In this document: piece by piece, positions 28,671-42,655 of the stretch
Layout: each line of letters begins with the position of its first letter
Numbering within the stretch: position 1 is the stretch's first letter
Origin: a virus
DNA: 52,507 nt
Strand: one strand, 5' to 3'
Virus record (IMG/VR): IMGVR_UViG_3300045999_003393
Location: 1 to 52,507 of that record
Notes under the pieces: model-generated
Databases searched by the model: none
Told to the model about the DNA's origin: nothing
Seen by the model: only the letters and a program-made list of their open reading frames with translations
Translations under genes and position numbers: made by a program

Positions 28671-29105
28671 CTATTTCGTTGATGCTTTAAGTTGCCAACG
28701 CCATTTCATATGCATATCAATGCGGTCAGCAAGTAAGTTGGCGATGCCCTGCTGTTTATCTTTAGTTGCCTGATCAAACGCTTCGTTAAGACGCTCAAGC
28801 AAGATGTCGTTAGCCTTCATCAGAGAACCAGCCATTGCCTTTGGACTTGGTTGTACATCCTTGAATTCAATGGTTCGTAGATCAATAAACTTCTGAAGGT
28901 TGAAAGGTGCGTAGTCGTCAAGTTTGCGGATGTTTTCTGCAAGTGGATCAATGGAACCGTACACATCCTCATAGATGTCGGAGAACAAAGAGTGGTACTG
29001 GCTGAAGTCCTGACCTTCCACGTTCCAATGGTACCCATGAGCCATGAAGTAGAAAGTAACTACATCGGACATGACCACTTTCAGCGATTTAATTAAATCT
29101 TTCAC
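28671..29105 (-). CDS. dps: Dps-like ferritin family protein
   Basis: 144 residues from GTG 29103-29105, where GGAG lies 5 bases upstream on the minus strand. The signature HGYHWNVEGQDFSQYHSLFS and the DPLAENIRKLDD segment match the Dps ferroxidase region (His, Asp/Glu residues shared between subunits), and LLADRIDMHMKWRWQL resembles the fifth helix. Dps proteins store iron and protect DNA from oxidative damage. It heads the leftward operon of basic proteins, all likely to act on DNA or in the virion. Confidence 0.85.
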   Translation of the reverse strand: MKDLIKSLKVVMSDVVTFYFMAHGYHWNVEGQDFSQYHSLFSDIYEDVYGSIDPLAENIRKLDDYAPFNLQKFIDLRTIEFKDVQPSPKAMAGSLMKANDILLERLNEAFDQATKDKQQGIANLLADRIDMHMKWRWQLKASTK

Positions 29106-29193
29106 TTTGTCTCCAGTGCTCGGCAAATTACAGAATATCACTCTGTGACGTGTGTTGCAGAGGGACAAAAAAGGTGATAACGTCCTCCACCTC
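29106..29193. promoter_or_regulatory. Divergent promoter region between operons C and D
   Basis: This 88-base stretch separates the leftward Dps operon from the rightward replication operon. On the minus strand, TGA followed by TATTCT (29132-29137) is a good extended -10 with a start near 29125, about 20 bases before the dps GTG. The matching rightward promoter is not obvious from the bases; TATCACT at 29136-29142 is the nearest candidate. Confidence 0.45.
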
Positions 29194-30420
29194 ATGGGAA
29201 CCAGTAATGTCTTCGGGGGTAGATTTATTGCTGTTCCTGAGTGGTCCGTGGACTACATCAACGAGCACGGGCAACCCCGAGACTTGCAGATTCTGGTCAC
29301 GTTGGTGTCCATGATGAGCCTCAACACCAAAGAGATTGACGCTTCCATTTCCGACATCGCCATCAAATCACGCACTTCCAAAGAGACTGTTAAGCGGTCA
29401 TTGAAGTGGTTGGAACAACACCACATCATTAATATTGTACGACGACCACGCCCCGCATCTTCGGTATATAAAGTGCATTATACACAGAAGGTAATAGGGT
29501 CACCCATGACCCCATATGGGGTCACCCATGACCCTATTATAGGGTCACCCATGACCCTATCCAATGAGGTTGATAGGGTCACCCATGACCCTATTGAAAT
29601 CAAAGAAACTCCAGCGTGTGACCAGCAAAACGAAAACCATAGAGTAATAATAGATAAAGAGATACATAGAGAATTATTAAAGAGGGCCGAGGGCGACATG
29701 ATCATTGGGGCAGACCCAGATAAACCTGAACAGACCAAGCAGTCAGAAACCAAACGGAAGCCACGCCCAGAGGTCAACGACCTGACGAACTACTTCGTCT
29801 ACCATCCACGGTCTGTCATGAACTGCTCGTACACCTTTCAGGACATGAACATCCTTCGGCGCAACATCCGGTTACTACTTGACGGTGGTCTTACCCGACC
29901 CACCATCAAGGGAATGATTGACCGGTTTTTCACCAACGAGCGGTTCATCAAAGCCGACTCCCCCGTGCTCATGTTCTGCACCAAGTCAGTACAGACCAGT
30001 CTCATGGAGAACATGCCAGTCACGTTGGATGACGACATGGGAGTGACCCTGCGGTTCCTGATGTCAGACTTTGACCGGTCAGGTATCAACCTTCCGTGGA
30101 ATGATGCCTTTGACAGTGTGATCCAGCAGGCTGTCATCCTCCGTGGATTAGATGCCTCCTACCGCTACCCTGAGTTGGTGGCTAGTATCATTGACACATC
30201 GTTTGATACCCCGAACTTCCAGCCCATGTTGAGTGCTTTAAACTCACTGGTTCGCTGGCATTTGGATGAGGAAGATGTTGATGTATCAGATATACATTCA
30301 ACATTATCTGATATTCCATTGCCAAAAGAATTGCTGTCAACAACAAAACAGAGCATTAGACCAGCGGCAGATAGCATAGTTTCTGCTGTGTACAACTACC
30401 GACGCATCAATCGTAACTAA
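29194..30420 (+). CDS. Replication initiator-like protein with winged helix
   Basis: 408 residues from ATG 29194; the frame extends upstream to GTG 29152 or TTG 29155, but none of the starts has a clear ribosome site. Residues about 27-96 form a winged-helix domain (DLQILVTLVSMMSLNTKEID, then SKETVKRSLKWLEQ and a wing ending YKVHY). The middle (about 101-135) encodes the four-copy repeat array described separately, and the rest is helical. It is the first gene before a DnaC-like loader, so it is a likely O/DnaD-type initiator. No ATPase motif is present. Confidence 0.78.
   Translation: MGTSNVFGGRFIAVPEWSVDYINEHGQPRDLQILVTLVSMMSLNTKEIDASISDIAIKSRTSKETVKRSLKWLEQHHIINIVRRPRPASSVYKVHYTQKVIGSPMTPYGVTHDPIIGSPMTLSNEVDRVTHDPIEIKETPACDQQNENHRVIIDKEIHRELLKRAEGDMIIGADPDKPEQTKQSETKRKPRPEVNDLTNYFVYHPRSVMNCSYTFQDMNILRRNIRLLLDGGLTRPTIKGMIDRFFTNERFIKADSPVLMFCTKSVQTSLMENMPVTLDDDMGVTLRFLMSDFDRSGINLPWNDAFDSVIQQAVILRGLDASYRYPELVASIIDTSFDTPNFQPMLSALNSLVRWHLDEEDVDVSDIHSTLSDIPLPKELLSTTKQSIRPAADSIVSAVYNYRRINRN
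29494..29594. repeat. Iteron-like array: candidate replication origin
   Basis: Four copies of GGGTCACCCATGACCC begin at 29497, 29519, 29542 and 29576 (steps of 22, 23 and 34 bases, close to 2, 2 and 3 helix turns). Each has arms GGGTCA/TGACCC around CCCA, and the outer bases add ATA and TAT. Because 22 and 34 are not multiples of 3, the copies are read in two alternating frames, so the repeats are conserved as DNA rather than as peptide. The host gene encodes a winged-helix initiator, as in oriλ inside gene O. Confidence 0.8.
29626..29684. other. A+T-rich stretch beside the iterons (possible unwinding element)
   Basis: Immediately downstream of the repeats, still inside the initiator gene, the sequence becomes A-rich and A+T-rich (29641-29682 has about one G or C in five). 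Such stretches next to iterons often serve as the site where the duplex first opens. Being in a coding region it is constrained by an ordinary peptide, which makes the low G+C less easily explained by codon choice. Confidence 0.5.
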
Positions 30421-30428
30421 GGAGTTCC

Positions 30429-31037
30429 ATGTCACAGACATATGTTGTTCCGACCGACTGGAAGTCGGAGAAGTGGTGGCGTAATCGCCCCGTAGACGAA
30501 CGCATGTTCCATTCTCGGGTACCCAATCGTTGGCGTTCTATCGGGCTAGATGACCTGACCATTTCCGACAAGGCGATGAAGTCAATCAACCACTGGGTTC
30601 ACAACTACGAGTTTGGTAACTCACTGATCCTGACCGGTGTCAACGGCAGTGGAAAGAGTGTTACCTCACAGGCGATCCTTCAGTACCTGATTCGTGAAAA
30701 AGGCGTGTCAGGTCGGTTCATTAGCGCAGACCGCTACATTGACATGCTGAAGGATTCCTTTGAAGGAGACAACGGTCTTCTCCCAGAGATGTACTCAATG
30801 CCTTACCTCTTGAAGTACATCCAAGGTGTCTTTGATGTCGTGGTGCTAGATGGTGTCGGGCAGGAACGTCAAACCGATTACTCAGTCCATGAGGTGGGTT
30901 CTTTGATTCGTCGTCGTTATGAGGACTCTCGTACGACGATCATCACCACGACGCTGTCACAGATTGACTTCACTCGTCGGTATGGTGACCGCATTGCCGT
31001 AGCAGTCTCTGACATGACGGGTATTCGGATCGCCTGA
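30429..31037 (+). CDS. DnaC-like helicase loader (AAA+ ATPase)
   Basis: 202 residues from ATG 30429 with AAGGAG. It contains a Walker A GVNGSGKS at about 74-81, Walker B VVVLDGVGQE at about 137-146, and an RTTIITTT sensor-like segment. The family loads DnaB on single-stranded DNA at origins. Its place right after the initiator and two genes before the helicase mirrors phage loader arrangements. The C-terminus overlaps the next ATG by one base. Confidence 0.85.
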   Translation: MSQTYVVPTDWKSEKWWRNRPVDERMFHSRVPNRWRSIGLDDLTISDKAMKSINHWVHNYEFGNSLILTGVNGSGKSVTSQAILQYLIREKGVSGRFISADRYIDMLKDSFEGDNGLLPEMYSMPYLLKYIQGVFDVVVLDGVGQERQTDYSVHEVGSLIRRRYEDSRTTIITTTLSQIDFTRRYGDRIAVAVSDMTGIRIA

Positions 31038-31480
31038 TGGAAAAGAACGACATTCATCCCGTGTCCCGTATCAAACAGGTCACCATGTTTGAAGGAGTTC
31101 TTGCATCCCCACCATCAACCATCGTTGGCAAGGTTAAGGGTGCTTACCATAAGCGAACATCTGACTGGTCATCTGTGATACCCCTATGGACTGTTCATGA
31201 TATGCCGATGCGGTCGCTCTCTGATTGCGTTAACCGGCGGGGCATCGCTACTCATGTCATCACTTTCCTTTCCCCTGATGCGGTTGATCCAATTGAGAAG
31301 TGGCTAATCCGTAAAGGTGTAAGCACCCCAGTTTTGTGGTACCCATCAATTATTGAGTTCGCAAGTGACTTGGTCTACGACCGTTCTGTTGCGGTTGTAT
31401 ACACACCACATGAGGACTATTCTTCAATTCTTGGATTGCGTGGTAAAGTTGTCAGCCCTGACAAGCCGTGGAGCATTTGA
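31037..31480 (+). CDS. Unknown protein between loader and helicase
   Basis: 147 residues from ATG 31037, overlapping the loader stop by one base; its own TGA overlaps the helicase ATG. The sequence has several beta-alpha stretches (ATHVITFLSPDAVDPI, then VAVVYTPHEDYSSILG) and no recognised motif. Its fixed place inside the replisome operon implies a function in helicase loading or assembly, but this is only context. Confidence 0.75.
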   Translation: MEKNDIHPVSRIKQVTMFEGVLASPPSTIVGKVKGAYHKRTSDWSSVIPLWTVHDMPMRSLSDCVNRRGIATHVITFLSPDAVDPIEKWLIRKGVSTPVLWYPSIIEFASDLVYDRSVAVVYTPHEDYSSILGLRGKVVSPDKPWSI

Positions 31481-32733
31481 TGTCGTCTAGCGAACTCTTA
31501 CTTATCTCAAAGATCATTCAAGAGAAAGACATCAACACCCCGGTTCGTGCAGGACTCAAGCCTGACCACTTCTCATCAACGTGGTCACCCATCTGGGAAT
31601 GGTTGCTTGACTTCAACCGCACCCATGGTGCTCTTCCTACAGACCGTGTGTTCAGCCAACAGTACGGGGACATCCAACTAGAAGACGCAACTGACGAGAC
31701 ATTCTCCCGTCTGCTGGACGAGGTGTTTGACTCTTACCGTCAGCGAATCATCGTTGACGCTTTGTCGTCTGCTATTCCAGCAATCAATGACAACGACATC
31801 AACACTGCTATCAGTTCGTTGTCGTCAGCCATTCAGAAATCCTCGGTAGAGGCATCACGTCTTCGTGACATTGACATCATTCAGAACTGGGAGAACCGCC
31901 TTGCTCGTTACGATGAGATGCGTCAACAACCCAATGCTCTTCGTGGCATTCCTACCGGATTCCATGGGCTTGACCGAATTACCCACGGACTACGTCCACA
32001 GCAGTTCATCGTCTTTGCCGGTGAACCCAAGCGTGGTAAGTCCCTCTTCGCTCTTATTCTCGCTAACTCCTCACACATCCACGGGAAACGGCCCCTCTTC
32101 GTTTCCTTTGAAATGAGTATTGAGGAACAAGAAGCACGTTATGACTCTCTGATATCCAAGGTTCCATACACACGCATTCTTAGTGGTGACCTTAACAAGG
32201 ATGATATGAAGAAGATTCGTCAAGCCTTGTCGCTACGCAAGCACATGCAACCCTTCGTGTTCAGTGAAGACACATCATCGCTTACGACTGTCAGTGCCCT
32301 CGCAGGAAAGATTCAGGAGTACAACCCTGACGTTCTGTTTGTTGACGGTGTGTATTTGATGGACGACGAGGAAGGTGAGCCAAAGGGATCACCACAGGCA
32401 TTGACCAACATCACTCGTTCTTTGAAACGGTTAGCACAGCGGTTTGATATCCCTGTCGTAGCCACCACTCAGGTTCTCTCATGGAAACTCCAAAACCGAA
32501 AGACCCGTGCGGTGACTGCTGACGCAATCGGATACACCTCTTCGTTTGCCCAAGATGCTGATCTGATTCTCGGTGTGGAGCGCAACCCAGATATGGATGA
32601 TCAAGCAATCATCCGTGTTGTGCTCGCTCGTACTGCCCCAACTGGAGAAGTCCACGTTAAGTGGGATTGGTCAACGATGGAGTTTGAAGAGATAAACGAC
32701 TATGACTCAAACATCAACCCCTCATACGACTAA
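31480..32733 (+). CDS. dnaB: Replicative DNA helicase, DnaB-like
   Basis: 417 residues from ATG 31480, chosen over GTG 31468 because ATG overlaps the previous stop. A DnaB-type N-terminal region is followed by RecA-fold core: GIPTGFHGLDRITHGL, Walker A GEPKRGKS (about 181-188), FVSFEMS and VLFVDGVY. It unwinds DNA ahead of the fork with the loader and the adjacent primase. The end overlaps the primase start by 32 bases. Confidence 0.93.
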   Translation: MSSSELLLISKIIQEKDINTPVRAGLKPDHFSSTWSPIWEWLLDFNRTHGALPTDRVFSQQYGDIQLEDATDETFSRLLDEVFDSYRQRIIVDALSSAIPAINDNDINTAISSLSSAIQKSSVEASRLRDIDIIQNWENRLARYDEMRQQPNALRGIPTGFHGLDRITHGLRPQQFIVFAGEPKRGKSLFALILANSSHIHGKRPLFVSFEMSIEEQEARYDSLISKVPYTRILSGDLNKDDMKKIRQALSLRKHMQPFVFSEDTSSLTTVSALAGKIQEYNPDVLFVDGVYLMDDEEGEPKGSPQALTNITRSLKRLAQRFDIPVVATTQVLSWKLQNRKTRAVTADAIGYTSSFAQDADLILGVERNPDMDDQAIIRVVLARTAPTGEVHVKWDWSTMEFEEINDYDSNINPSYD

Positions 32734-33625
32734 CCTCGCAGAAGTCCTACAGTCCGTAGGAGTAGAACTAAAGCGTGTCGGTGATCGGGAAATCACCGGC
32801 AAATGCCCAGTACACATACGCACTGTGGGGCGTGAAGACCGCTCACCTTCTTGGAGTATCAACGCCAACACTGGTCTATGGATCTGCTTTTCATGCGGTG
32901 CCCGTGGAACACTCTCGTCACTACTGGCAGAACTGACTGGGATTGAAGCCGGTCTTGAAATACAGAAGTTCTTGGTTTCCACGAACTTCAATAATCTCAC
33001 CCTTCCCAAAGAGGGTGAGGAAACTGTCTATGTGGATCGGGATGCTTTCTTTCGGTTTGACCGTGTGTCCGATGCCAAGTGTGCCTTCAAGAACCTAGAC
33101 CCAGACTTGGTACACCGATATGGAGTCCGTTGGAATCCCAAGTCAAAGGCGTGGGCGATCCCGATCATGTCTGCCACTGGTCGTTTAGATGGCTGGCAGG
33201 AAAAGAAGACTGGGTGGGTACGCAACTTCCCCGTAGGCGTAGAAAAGGGAAAGACCCTGTTTGGTATAGAACGCTTTCGCTCACGCACAGCCATCTTGGT
33301 GGAGTCCCCATTGGACATCATCCGATTTGCTGGGGTCTTTGAAAAACCACAGGCTTTAGCCACCTTCGGAGCACAGGTCTCAAAAGACCAGATGCACTTA
33401 GTAACCCATGTCGCTGATCGTGTTATTGTGGCTATGGACAACGACGAGGCTGGTATTGAATCCAGTAAGAAGTTGTACAAATTCATGAATCGTCCACGAA
33501 AAGGGTTGCTGTGGTGGAACTATGCTGGAACCTCAGCAAAGGATATCGGGGATATGACTGACGACGAAATAGAGAACGGTCTTAAAACAGCGACCGTCAT
33601 GCCACCGTGGATTCAAAATGTTTAA
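32702..33625 (+). CDS. DNA primase (DnaG type, short)
   Basis: 307 residues from ATG 32702. The N-terminus has a CHC2-type zinc finger (CPVH, then CFSCG near 66-71), followed by a Toprim domain with LVESPLD and AMDNDEAG, giving the catalytic Glu and Asp-x-Asp. The size is about half that of DnaG, with no helicase-binding C-terminal domain obvious. It synthesises RNA primers at the fork and is translated overlapping DnaB. Confidence 0.9.
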   Translation: MTQTSTPHTTNLAEVLQSVGVELKRVGDREITGKCPVHIRTVGREDRSPSWSINANTGLWICFSCGARGTLSSLLAELTGIEAGLEIQKFLVSTNFNNLTLPKEGEETVYVDRDAFFRFDRVSDAKCAFKNLDPDLVHRYGVRWNPKSKAWAIPIMSATGRLDGWQEKKTGWVRNFPVGVEKGKTLFGIERFRSRTAILVESPLDIIRFAGVFEKPQALATFGAQVSKDQMHLVTHVADRVIVAMDNDEAGIESSKKLYKFMNRPRKGLLWWNYAGTSAKDIGDMTDDEIENGLKTATVMPPWIQNV

Positions 33626-41403: not shown

Positions 41404-41783
41404 AGAAGACACTACTAATTGGAGCACTGCTGTTAACAGCGTGTGGTGGTACCGATACTGTGTACATCACCGCAACAGAGGCTCCTGACACAACTACCAA
41501 AGTTGTCAAGACCACCGACGCACCAATTGCCTCATGGACAGATGAAGACGAGTTTCTTTACAACATTAAGAGTGAGGTTGGCAACACAGGTGTGAGTGAC
41601 CGTGACCTCCTTGAGACCGGATACCTTGTGTGCGACTCACTTCGTAACGGTGCTCAGGCGTGGGACGTTGCCACCGCACTAGACCGGTCTGCGACTGACT
41701 ACTACACTCAAAAGATGCTCATCGCACTCACTGCCTCCGCAGTTATCAACTTCTGCCCCGATCAGTTATGGAAGTTTGAATGA
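41400..41783 (+). CDS. Secreted lipoprotein, DUF732-like
   Basis: 127 residues from ATG 41400 (ATGA overlap). The N-terminus MKKTLLIGALLLTAC is a bacterial lipoprotein signal with a lipobox before Cys15. A Thr-rich linker follows and then a region like actinobacterial DUF732 (DEFLYNIKSEVGNTGVSD, CDSLRNG, FCPDQLW). DUF732 proteins are typical of mycobacteria and relatives, which supports an actinobacterial host. Being surface-anchored but inside a DNA-metabolism operon, it may block superinfection or alter the envelope. Confidence 0.82.
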   Translation: MKKTLLIGALLLTACGGTDTVYITATEAPDTTTKVVKTTDAPIASWTDEDEFLYNIKSEVGNTGVSDRDLLETGYLVCDSLRNGAQAWDVATALDRSATDYYTQKMLIALTASAVINFCPDQLWKFE

Positions 41784-42655
41784 GCAATCCCACGACAGAA
41801 TGGTACAAGCAGAACTTTAAGGACTCCTTGAAGTCAAAAGGTCGGCTACTCCCTGTTGTTTCTCAGGTTCTAGCAAACAAGACCGCTGACCGTAACTCAC
41901 ATCGTGACACTAAGCATCTTCATCCTTCGGAGATCTCTAAGAAGGACTGGTGTCCACGTTCATCTTGGTATAAAATAAAAGGGTACGAGGGTACTGAAGA
42001 CTCCATGTCGTTTGGTCGCCTGAATATCTTTGAGGAGGGTCATGCGATTCACGAAAAGTGGCAAGGGTGGCTCCGAGAAGCCGGTGTCCTCGCAGGTTCG
42101 TGGGAATGTATGGGATGCGGTGATCGTTGGTATGCAGTGTCTCCTGATAGTTGCCACGGGTGCGGTTATCTTGACGTTGTATATCGTGAAGTCCCTATAC
42201 ACAGCGATGAATATCGGATCATTGGACACGCCGATGGGGAGATACAAGACTCTCAAGGAAAAGCCCTACTTGAAATAAAGAGCGTTGGTTTGGGTTCCCT
42301 TCGTTGGGAGAATCCAACACTGTTCAATGCCTACACATCAGGTGAGGTCAAGTTTGAGGACTTGTTCAAAAACATAAAGAAGCCCTTTGCCTCCCACATC
42401 CGTCAGGGTAGTTTGTACATGTTGTGCACAGGTATCCACACAATCGTGTTTGTGTATGAGTGGAAGCCAACCCAAGAGGTCAAAGAGTTCACCGTTGAGT
42501 TTCAACAAGAACTGATTCAGCCGGTACTTGATGGTTGTAAGTCGGTAATAGAGCATCTTGATATGGATATCGTTCCTGATCGCCCTCAATGGGCTACCAC
42601 GTCCACAGCAAATGGTTGTAAGTATTGTCCTTACAAGAAAGTGTGCTGGGCATGA
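41780..42655 (+). CDS. Cas4/RecB-like PD-(D/E)XK nuclease
   Basis: 291 residues from ATG 41780 (overlapping upstream). The core has IIGHADGE and ALLEIKS (Asp, Glu-x-Lys), followed by a QGSLYMLCT-type Q-motif and a C-terminal CKYCPYKKVC cluster suggesting an Fe-S or zinc site as in Cas4. An inserted zinc-ribbon-like CMGC...CHGC sits near residues 111-128. It is an exonuclease candidate for processing DNA ends with the recombinase. Confidence 0.85.
   Translation: MSNPTTEWYKQNFKDSLKSKGRLLPVVSQVLANKTADRNSHRDTKHLHPSEISKKDWCPRSSWYKIKGYEGTEDSMSFGRLNIFEEGHAIHEKWQGWLREAGVLAGSWECMGCGDRWYAVSPDSCHGCGYLDVVYREVPIHSDEYRIIGHADGEIQDSQGKALLEIKSVGLGSLRWENPTLFNAYTSGEVKFEDLFKNIKKPFASHIRQGSLYMLCTGIHTIVFVYEWKPTQEVKEFTVEFQQELIQPVLDGCKSVIEHLDMDIVPDRPQWATTSTANGCKYCPYKKVCWA

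Follow-up and report, generated by a model that had tools for sequence, protein, structure and literature searches.

The stretch of DNA analysed here, referred to below as the window, is a virus record of 52,507 bases, and a 93-kb contig is 98-99% identical to it across most of the window. Structural genes, including that for the tail sheath, identify the virus as a myovirus. The locus under study is an initiator-like gene that is followed by genes for a helicase loader, a DnaB-like helicase and a DnaG-like primase (Table 1), an order shared by almost every locus checked; beyond the primase lie genes for DNA polymerase A, RecA and a possible SSB. An initial annotation of the window had taken the gene after the initiator to be a DnaC-like loader, and its PHROG_50 match agrees. 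The gene that separates the loader from DnaB always occupies this interval in the relatives checked, with 33-52% identity. The longest open reading frame of the initiator gene begins at a GTG at 29152; the start is likely the ATG at 29194, with the relatives aligning from ...MGTSNVFGG. Of the 16 aligned members, 14 match replication-initiation families in PHROG, the best match being to phrog_270 (E 9e-12), and Crp/DeoR HTH models of Pfam match among these members; the window protein itself had no Pfam match.

Table 1 Features of the initiator locus in window coordinates. Initiator residues are numbered from the codon at 29200, and AlphaFold2 was run on the 16-member alignment.
Feature	Coordinates	Strand	Remarks
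Initiator-like gene	29152..30420	+	PHROG replication-initiation family matches
N-terminal winged-helix domain, residues 8-97	29221..29490	+	AlphaFold2
Recognition helix, residues 61-73, KETVKRSLKWLEQ	29380..29418	+	AlphaFold2; after helix 50-57
Codon of Lys65 (= Lys81 of P0001)	29392..29394	+	Recognition helix
Disordered linker, residues 98-185	29491..29754	+	Nearly all residues pLDDT <50
Iteron 1, ATAGGGTCA-CCCA-TGACCCCAT	29494..29515	+	
Iteron 2, ATGGGGTCA-CCCA-TGACCCTAT	29516..29537	+	Lost in 45/34-register relatives
Iteron 3, ATAGGGTCA-CCCA-TGACCCTAT	29539..29560	+	
Iteron 4, ATAGGGTCA-CCCA-TGACCCTAT	29573..29594	+	
A-rich, C-poor block, candidate unwinding element	29632..29679	+	GC minimum of gene
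Degenerate hairpin copy, GCC-GAG-GGC	29686..29694	+	Window P 0.25-0.29, not significant
Helical C-terminal domain, residues 190-404	29767..30411	+	AlphaFold2
DnaC-like AAA+ helicase loader	30429..31037	+	phrog_50, E 1.3e-20
Conserved neighbour gene	31037..31480	+	No Pfam/PHROG match; at all loci checked
DnaB-like replicative helicase	31468..32733	+	phrog_19, E 5.6e-68
DnaG-like primase	32702..33625	+	phrog_47, E 5.4e-32

Within the initiator gene, the 16-mer GGGTCACCCATGACCC occurs in four exact copies on the + strand (29497-29512, 29519-29534, 29542-29557 and 29576-29591), with start-to-start spacings of 22, 23 and 34, and the symmetric unit is a 22-bp hyphenated dyad, ATAGGGTCA-CCCA-TGACCCTAT. 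The four near-palindromes that the initial annotation had placed at 29494-29594, inside a winged-helix initiator-like gene, were reproduced in both coordinates and repeats, and so was their reading in alternating frames as GSPMT, VTHDP, GSPMT and VTHDP. It had also described the spacings as near whole helical turns; the intervals themselves were confirmed, but they correspond to whole turns only roughly. When up to three mismatches (<=3) were allowed, the window held 5 matches where 0.66 would be expected, and none of 100 shuffles had as many as 5. Codon-preserving shuffles of L022, the 98-99% identical copy of the window, yielded a mean of 0.26 sites against 4 observed, and a bias in the L022 peptide itself let the highest of 1000 shuffles reach 4 as well. 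In the relatives the same procedure gave means of 0.00-0.23 sites, and the observed 2-4 exceeded every shuffle save in L048, where 1 site was observed and the shuffle maximum was 1, and L047, whose altered arms are not counted by the pattern used in the test.

The window virus shares its in-gene array with at least 16 distinct relatives. When viral contigs were searched for exact copies of the 22-mer, 16 loci were recovered, the near-identical contig among them, and in each the array lies in a homologous gene; profile searches extended the family to 46 loci, and a further profile scan (A5) added no new lineage. Among related viral contigs that cover the linker region, the array lies at the same place in 45 of 45, representing 17 lineages whose proteins are about 35-56% identical to that of the window. 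Each of the 45 loci has three or four sites, and these keep to a set register of 22, 23, 34 or 45 bp apart from the small variants 23/22/23 and 22/33/33. The initial annotation had named close relatives with an intact initiator but no repeats as grounds for refutation; the opposite was seen, with the array kept in register down to ~35% protein identity. Scans for the array only (two dyads at 34- or 22-bp spacing, with no protein input) recovered the initiator gene family alone, divergent members included, and no further sites with a 4-bp centre were found outside the array in the fifteen contigs searched, up to 96 kb. The window initiator had no tblastn match in 50,697 phage records, nor did the more distant member L046, and neither relatives nor the exact 22-mer were found in genome_contigs (prokaryote genome contigs). 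The Streptomyces phages BRock and LuckySocke, whose DnaB is ~33% identical, were considered and set aside, as the surroundings of their loader genes showed no repeat array.

The pattern of conservation at these loci indicates selection on DNA rather than on peptide, as the initial annotation had argued. The arms GGGTCA/TGACCC are nearly invariant, and the 4-bp centre takes 14 forms in 44 copies from 12 representatives; the earlier description of arms around CCCA is accordingly correct for the arms, which are fixed in relatives, but not for the centre, which is unconserved and free. The encoded peptides change between relatives (GSPMT, GSSVT and GSRVT; VTHDP, VMDDP and VMGDP) while the DNA stays. 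Synonymous-codon identity, defined as codon agreement at identical residues in pairs of <65% protein identity, was 0.78, 0.96, 0.77 and 0.86 in the array bins versus 0.44 gene-wide, and 0.38 and 0.60 in two spacer/gap bins; the bins are set on the reference copy L022, which differs slightly from the window, and adding 29203 converts them to window coordinates. One may postulate that the array is a coding coincidence, or a recent tandem duplication of a peptide repeat, given that the peptide is repetitive and that in the L022 codon-preserving null alone four sites arise once in 1000. The copies lie in different frames, however, the peptides differ between relatives while the DNA is kept, and the register persists over deep divergence; this explanation is already refuted by the comparison, and we regard it as extremely improbable.

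The A+T-rich stretch that had been reported after the array is real. At 29632-29679 GC drops to 11/48, the gene's minimum, where 20.1 would be expected for that peptide (P<0.0005), and in 16 of 17 lineages the gene-wide GC minimum falls at the same place, 46-60 nt downstream of where the last site core starts, with a coding strand that is A-rich and C-poor. Block GC was below the codon-choice prediction in 14 of 17 lineages (P<0.05), although these P values are optimistic given that the block was picked as a local minimum. A second block of synonymous conservation, at 0.80-0.86, spans about 29632-29692, where protein identity is only 0.20-0.30. As a sequence feature, a candidate AT-rich unwinding element thus adjoins the array.

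Directly 3' of this block, 15 of 17 lineages carry a GC-rich inverted repeat with arms of 4-6 bp. The arms differ between relatives (GCCGC/GCGGC, GTCGC/GCGAC, GACCGC/GCGGTC, GTCCCC/GGGGAC, GCTCCC/GGGAGC, GGCTG/CAGCC and GGCC/GGCC), and the stems carry compensatory changes. By codon-preserving resampling the hairpin reached P<0.05 in each of the 15 lineages, in a post hoc test of a feature spotted while reading the alignment. Pairing that is kept while the sequence changes suggests recognition of a folded single strand, whether DNA or RNA. The hairpin has decayed in the window, so that this exact form cannot be essential. The relatives concerned are L093, L095-L100, L106, L107, L113, L118, L127-L130 and L138. 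The lambda origin has a further palindrome to the right of its AT-rich region, which we did not use as evidence.

In the AlphaFold2 model, the array, the AT-rich block and the hairpin all fall within the low-confidence linker that joins the two predicted domains of the initiator. Confidence in the winged helix was higher, with pLDDT mostly 80-91 over residues 11-80 and 60-71 over residues 81-100. An array at this position would be tolerated inside the gene because it codes for a disordered linker. A fold search against the PDB returned generic winged helices only, none with E <0.001; weak matches included ArsR/MarR-type repressors, TubR, the pNOB8 centromere-binding protein, and an 'initiator' structure (4pt7, and also 4pql), both of which entries we take to be RepA_N N-terminal domains. 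Viral matches included, by name, a replisome organizer, a replicon initiation protein and the lambda GpO N-terminal domain. The presence of TubR and the pNOB8 protein in this list, both of a kind that binds iteron arrays, raises the alternative that the winged-helix protein binds a centromere-like partition site or a packaging site. We consider this highly improbable, as the matches are all generic and below significance, none of the scanned proteins was recognised as a partition protein, the array and the terminase genes are far apart, and the neighbourhood is that of a replisome.

Variation in the arms offers a view of what may read them. In L107 the arms are AGGTCA/TGACCT in two of three copies and GAGTCA/TGACCT in the third, and in L138 they are GTGTCA/TGACAC in three copies, the fourth being degenerate; most copies in both lineages changed symmetrically, and as each of these lineages lies next to or among GGGTCA lineages on the tree, the arms changed twice independently. 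Lys65 is the only column of 406 residues that is invariant in all 15 lineages with GGGTCA arms and changed in both altered lineages, to Gln in L107 and Ile in L138. There are 49 invariant columns, six of them in the recognition helix, and L107 changes one (Lys65) and L138 four. By counting, the chance that both would change the same column is ~0.08, and that it would also lie inside the helix ~0.01, figures that are post hoc and based on two events. Again post hoc, this covariation suggests that the iterons are recognised by the initiator whose gene contains them.

These data also bear on whether the dyads instead act in mRNA, as hairpins for translation, decay or coupling in an initiator-loader operon. 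Predicted RNA folding of the array is strong (z -6.7 in the window and -9.1 in L047), G-U is commoner than A-C at the outermost pairs (17 versus 4 at pair 3), and the downstream hairpin retains pairing through sequence change. The inner arms are nearly invariant in 44 copies, however, which goes beyond mere complementarity and is as expected for a protein site, and within a lineage most copies show one and the same arm change, accompanied by change of a residue in the recognition helix. Moreover, the minimum-energy fold pairs neighbouring copies rather than forming single hairpins, and Rfam returned nothing at gathering score. An RNA element is therefore very unlikely.

An initiator that binds within its own gene could also be a regulator, and we counted this against reading the array as an origin. 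In such a scenario the initiator or another wHTH regulator would autoregulate the early operon by roadblock at an operator array, and the origin would lie elsewhere. Dyads of this size are typical of operators, and the winged helix resembles both ArsR/MarR-type repressors and the Crp/DeoR HTH models. Against this, the sites lie 300 nt inside the gene rather than at a promoter, with no further sites in the contigs searched, and a regulator would leave unexplained why an A-rich block and a hairpin are conserved at a set distance, why the protein matches PHROG replication-initiation families and why a loader gene is its neighbour. We judge an operator array unlikely.

The layout can be compared with that of characterised in-gene origins. 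In ori-lambda, an O dimer binds each of four iterons, which are hyphenated inverted repeats of 18-19 bp, and an AT-rich region of 38-39 bp comes next, all of it centrally within gene O (PMC6022878, PMC3349717); the origin lies between the DNA-binding and loader-binding domains of O, with the loader gene next (PMC6022878, PMC3349717, PMC7466680), and G residues of the iterons are protected in DMS footprints (PMC7466680). The window likewise has four dyad iterons and then an AT-rich stretch inside the initiator gene, adjoined by a loader gene, but it differs in iteron sequence and spacing, in a loader that is DnaC/IstB-like AAA+ and unlike lambda P, and in the phage having its own DnaB and primase. 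No lambda O homologue was found across the protein, the only matches to O-like PHROGs being weak and in the winged-helix region. Of the oriλ-like arrangement put forward in the initial annotation, the design of in-gene iterons, AT block and adjacent loader is thus retained, while the comparison gives no grounds for placing its proteins among the lambda O/P families. In SPP1, oriL, with its repeats and AT-rich unwinding element, lies inside gene 38, followed by the loader gp39 and the DnaB-type helicase gp40 (PMC6316719), and the window shares this succession of an origin-bearing initiator gene, loader and phage DnaB-type helicase. The SPP1 sites are described as direct repeats, whereas those of the window are dyads, and SPP1 has a second origin, oriR, whereas no second array was present in the contigs searched here. 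In pSK41, four Rep boxes lie centrally within rep, and the ori encodes a dispensable linker between the winged-helix N-terminal and C-terminal domains (PMC5703833); the AlphaFold2 model places the window element in a similarly positioned linker. pSK41 is a RepA_N plasmid and the window is a phage; the RepA_N domain PF06970 was not among the Pfam matches listed for the 16 aligned members, and the window initiator had no significant sequence or fold match to RepA_N. Very probably, then, the array shares the in-gene origin design of lambda, SPP1 and pSK41.

The explanation that we favour for these observations, and hold with considerable confidence, is, as the initial annotation had proposed, that the array marks where a dsDNA myophage carries its replication origin, inside the gene for its initiator. 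In the mechanism that we propose as part of this reading, each 22-bp dyad would bind one dimer of the N-terminal winged helix of the initiator, and with three or four dimers in place a nucleoprotein core would form, straining and melting the A-rich block that lies 40-60 bp downstream. The C-terminal domain would then deliver the exposed strand to the DnaC-like loader from the adjacent gene; this loader would load the phage's own DnaB, and primase would follow. Cumulative GC skew, which had been suggested as a check, proved uninformative and lends no support for an origin at the array, as no inflection was seen there in the window or in four contigs of 92-96 kb.

The locus may represent a family of in-gene phage origins not described before, built from dyad iterons, an A-rich block and a hairpin, in that order, with the hairpin conserved in pairing rather than sequence. 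In such a family the fit of initiator to origin would shift through coupled changes in Lys65 and the outer arm bases, and the melted strand would be where the hairpin acts, for instance in positioning loader or primase; we consider this reading as a whole possible but doubtful. The present case adds a separate myophage family, drawn from uncultured viral contigs only, to the few model in-gene origins (lambda, SPP1 and pSK41 as cited above). It also provides a predicted initiator-origin pair and a contact hypothesis, Lys65 with the outer arm bases, for which natural arm and Lys65 variants are available for swap tests, as well as a possible third origin element. Synonymous-site conservation of in-gene arrays could potentially map origins in uncultured phages whose GC skew is silent.

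Several minor observations concern the surroundings of the array. A Ferritin/Dps-like gene (window 28671-29195, - strand; Pfam Ferritin E 2.8e-14) is divergent from the initiator gene, and its upstream position is kept in nearly all relatives. Inside this gene, about 550-650 bp upstream of the array, some relatives carry a perfect palindrome with the same half-site, GGGTCAATTGACCC (L004:6012-6025 and equivalents in L002, L006, L014 and L046); it is absent in the window, and we rejected it as probably a coding coincidence of G-S-I-D-P codons. Elsewhere in the window, a Cas4-domain exonuclease-like gene lies at 41780-42655 (PHROG_2506 E 5.5e-30, PHROG_1990 E 2.6e-18). The gap between initiator and loader is 8 nt in the window versus roughly 190-410 nt in relatives (L093:6222-6569, L118:6231-6422, L138:6234-6626 and others), where it holds an open frame that in several of them encodes a CxxC...H zinc-finger-like motif.
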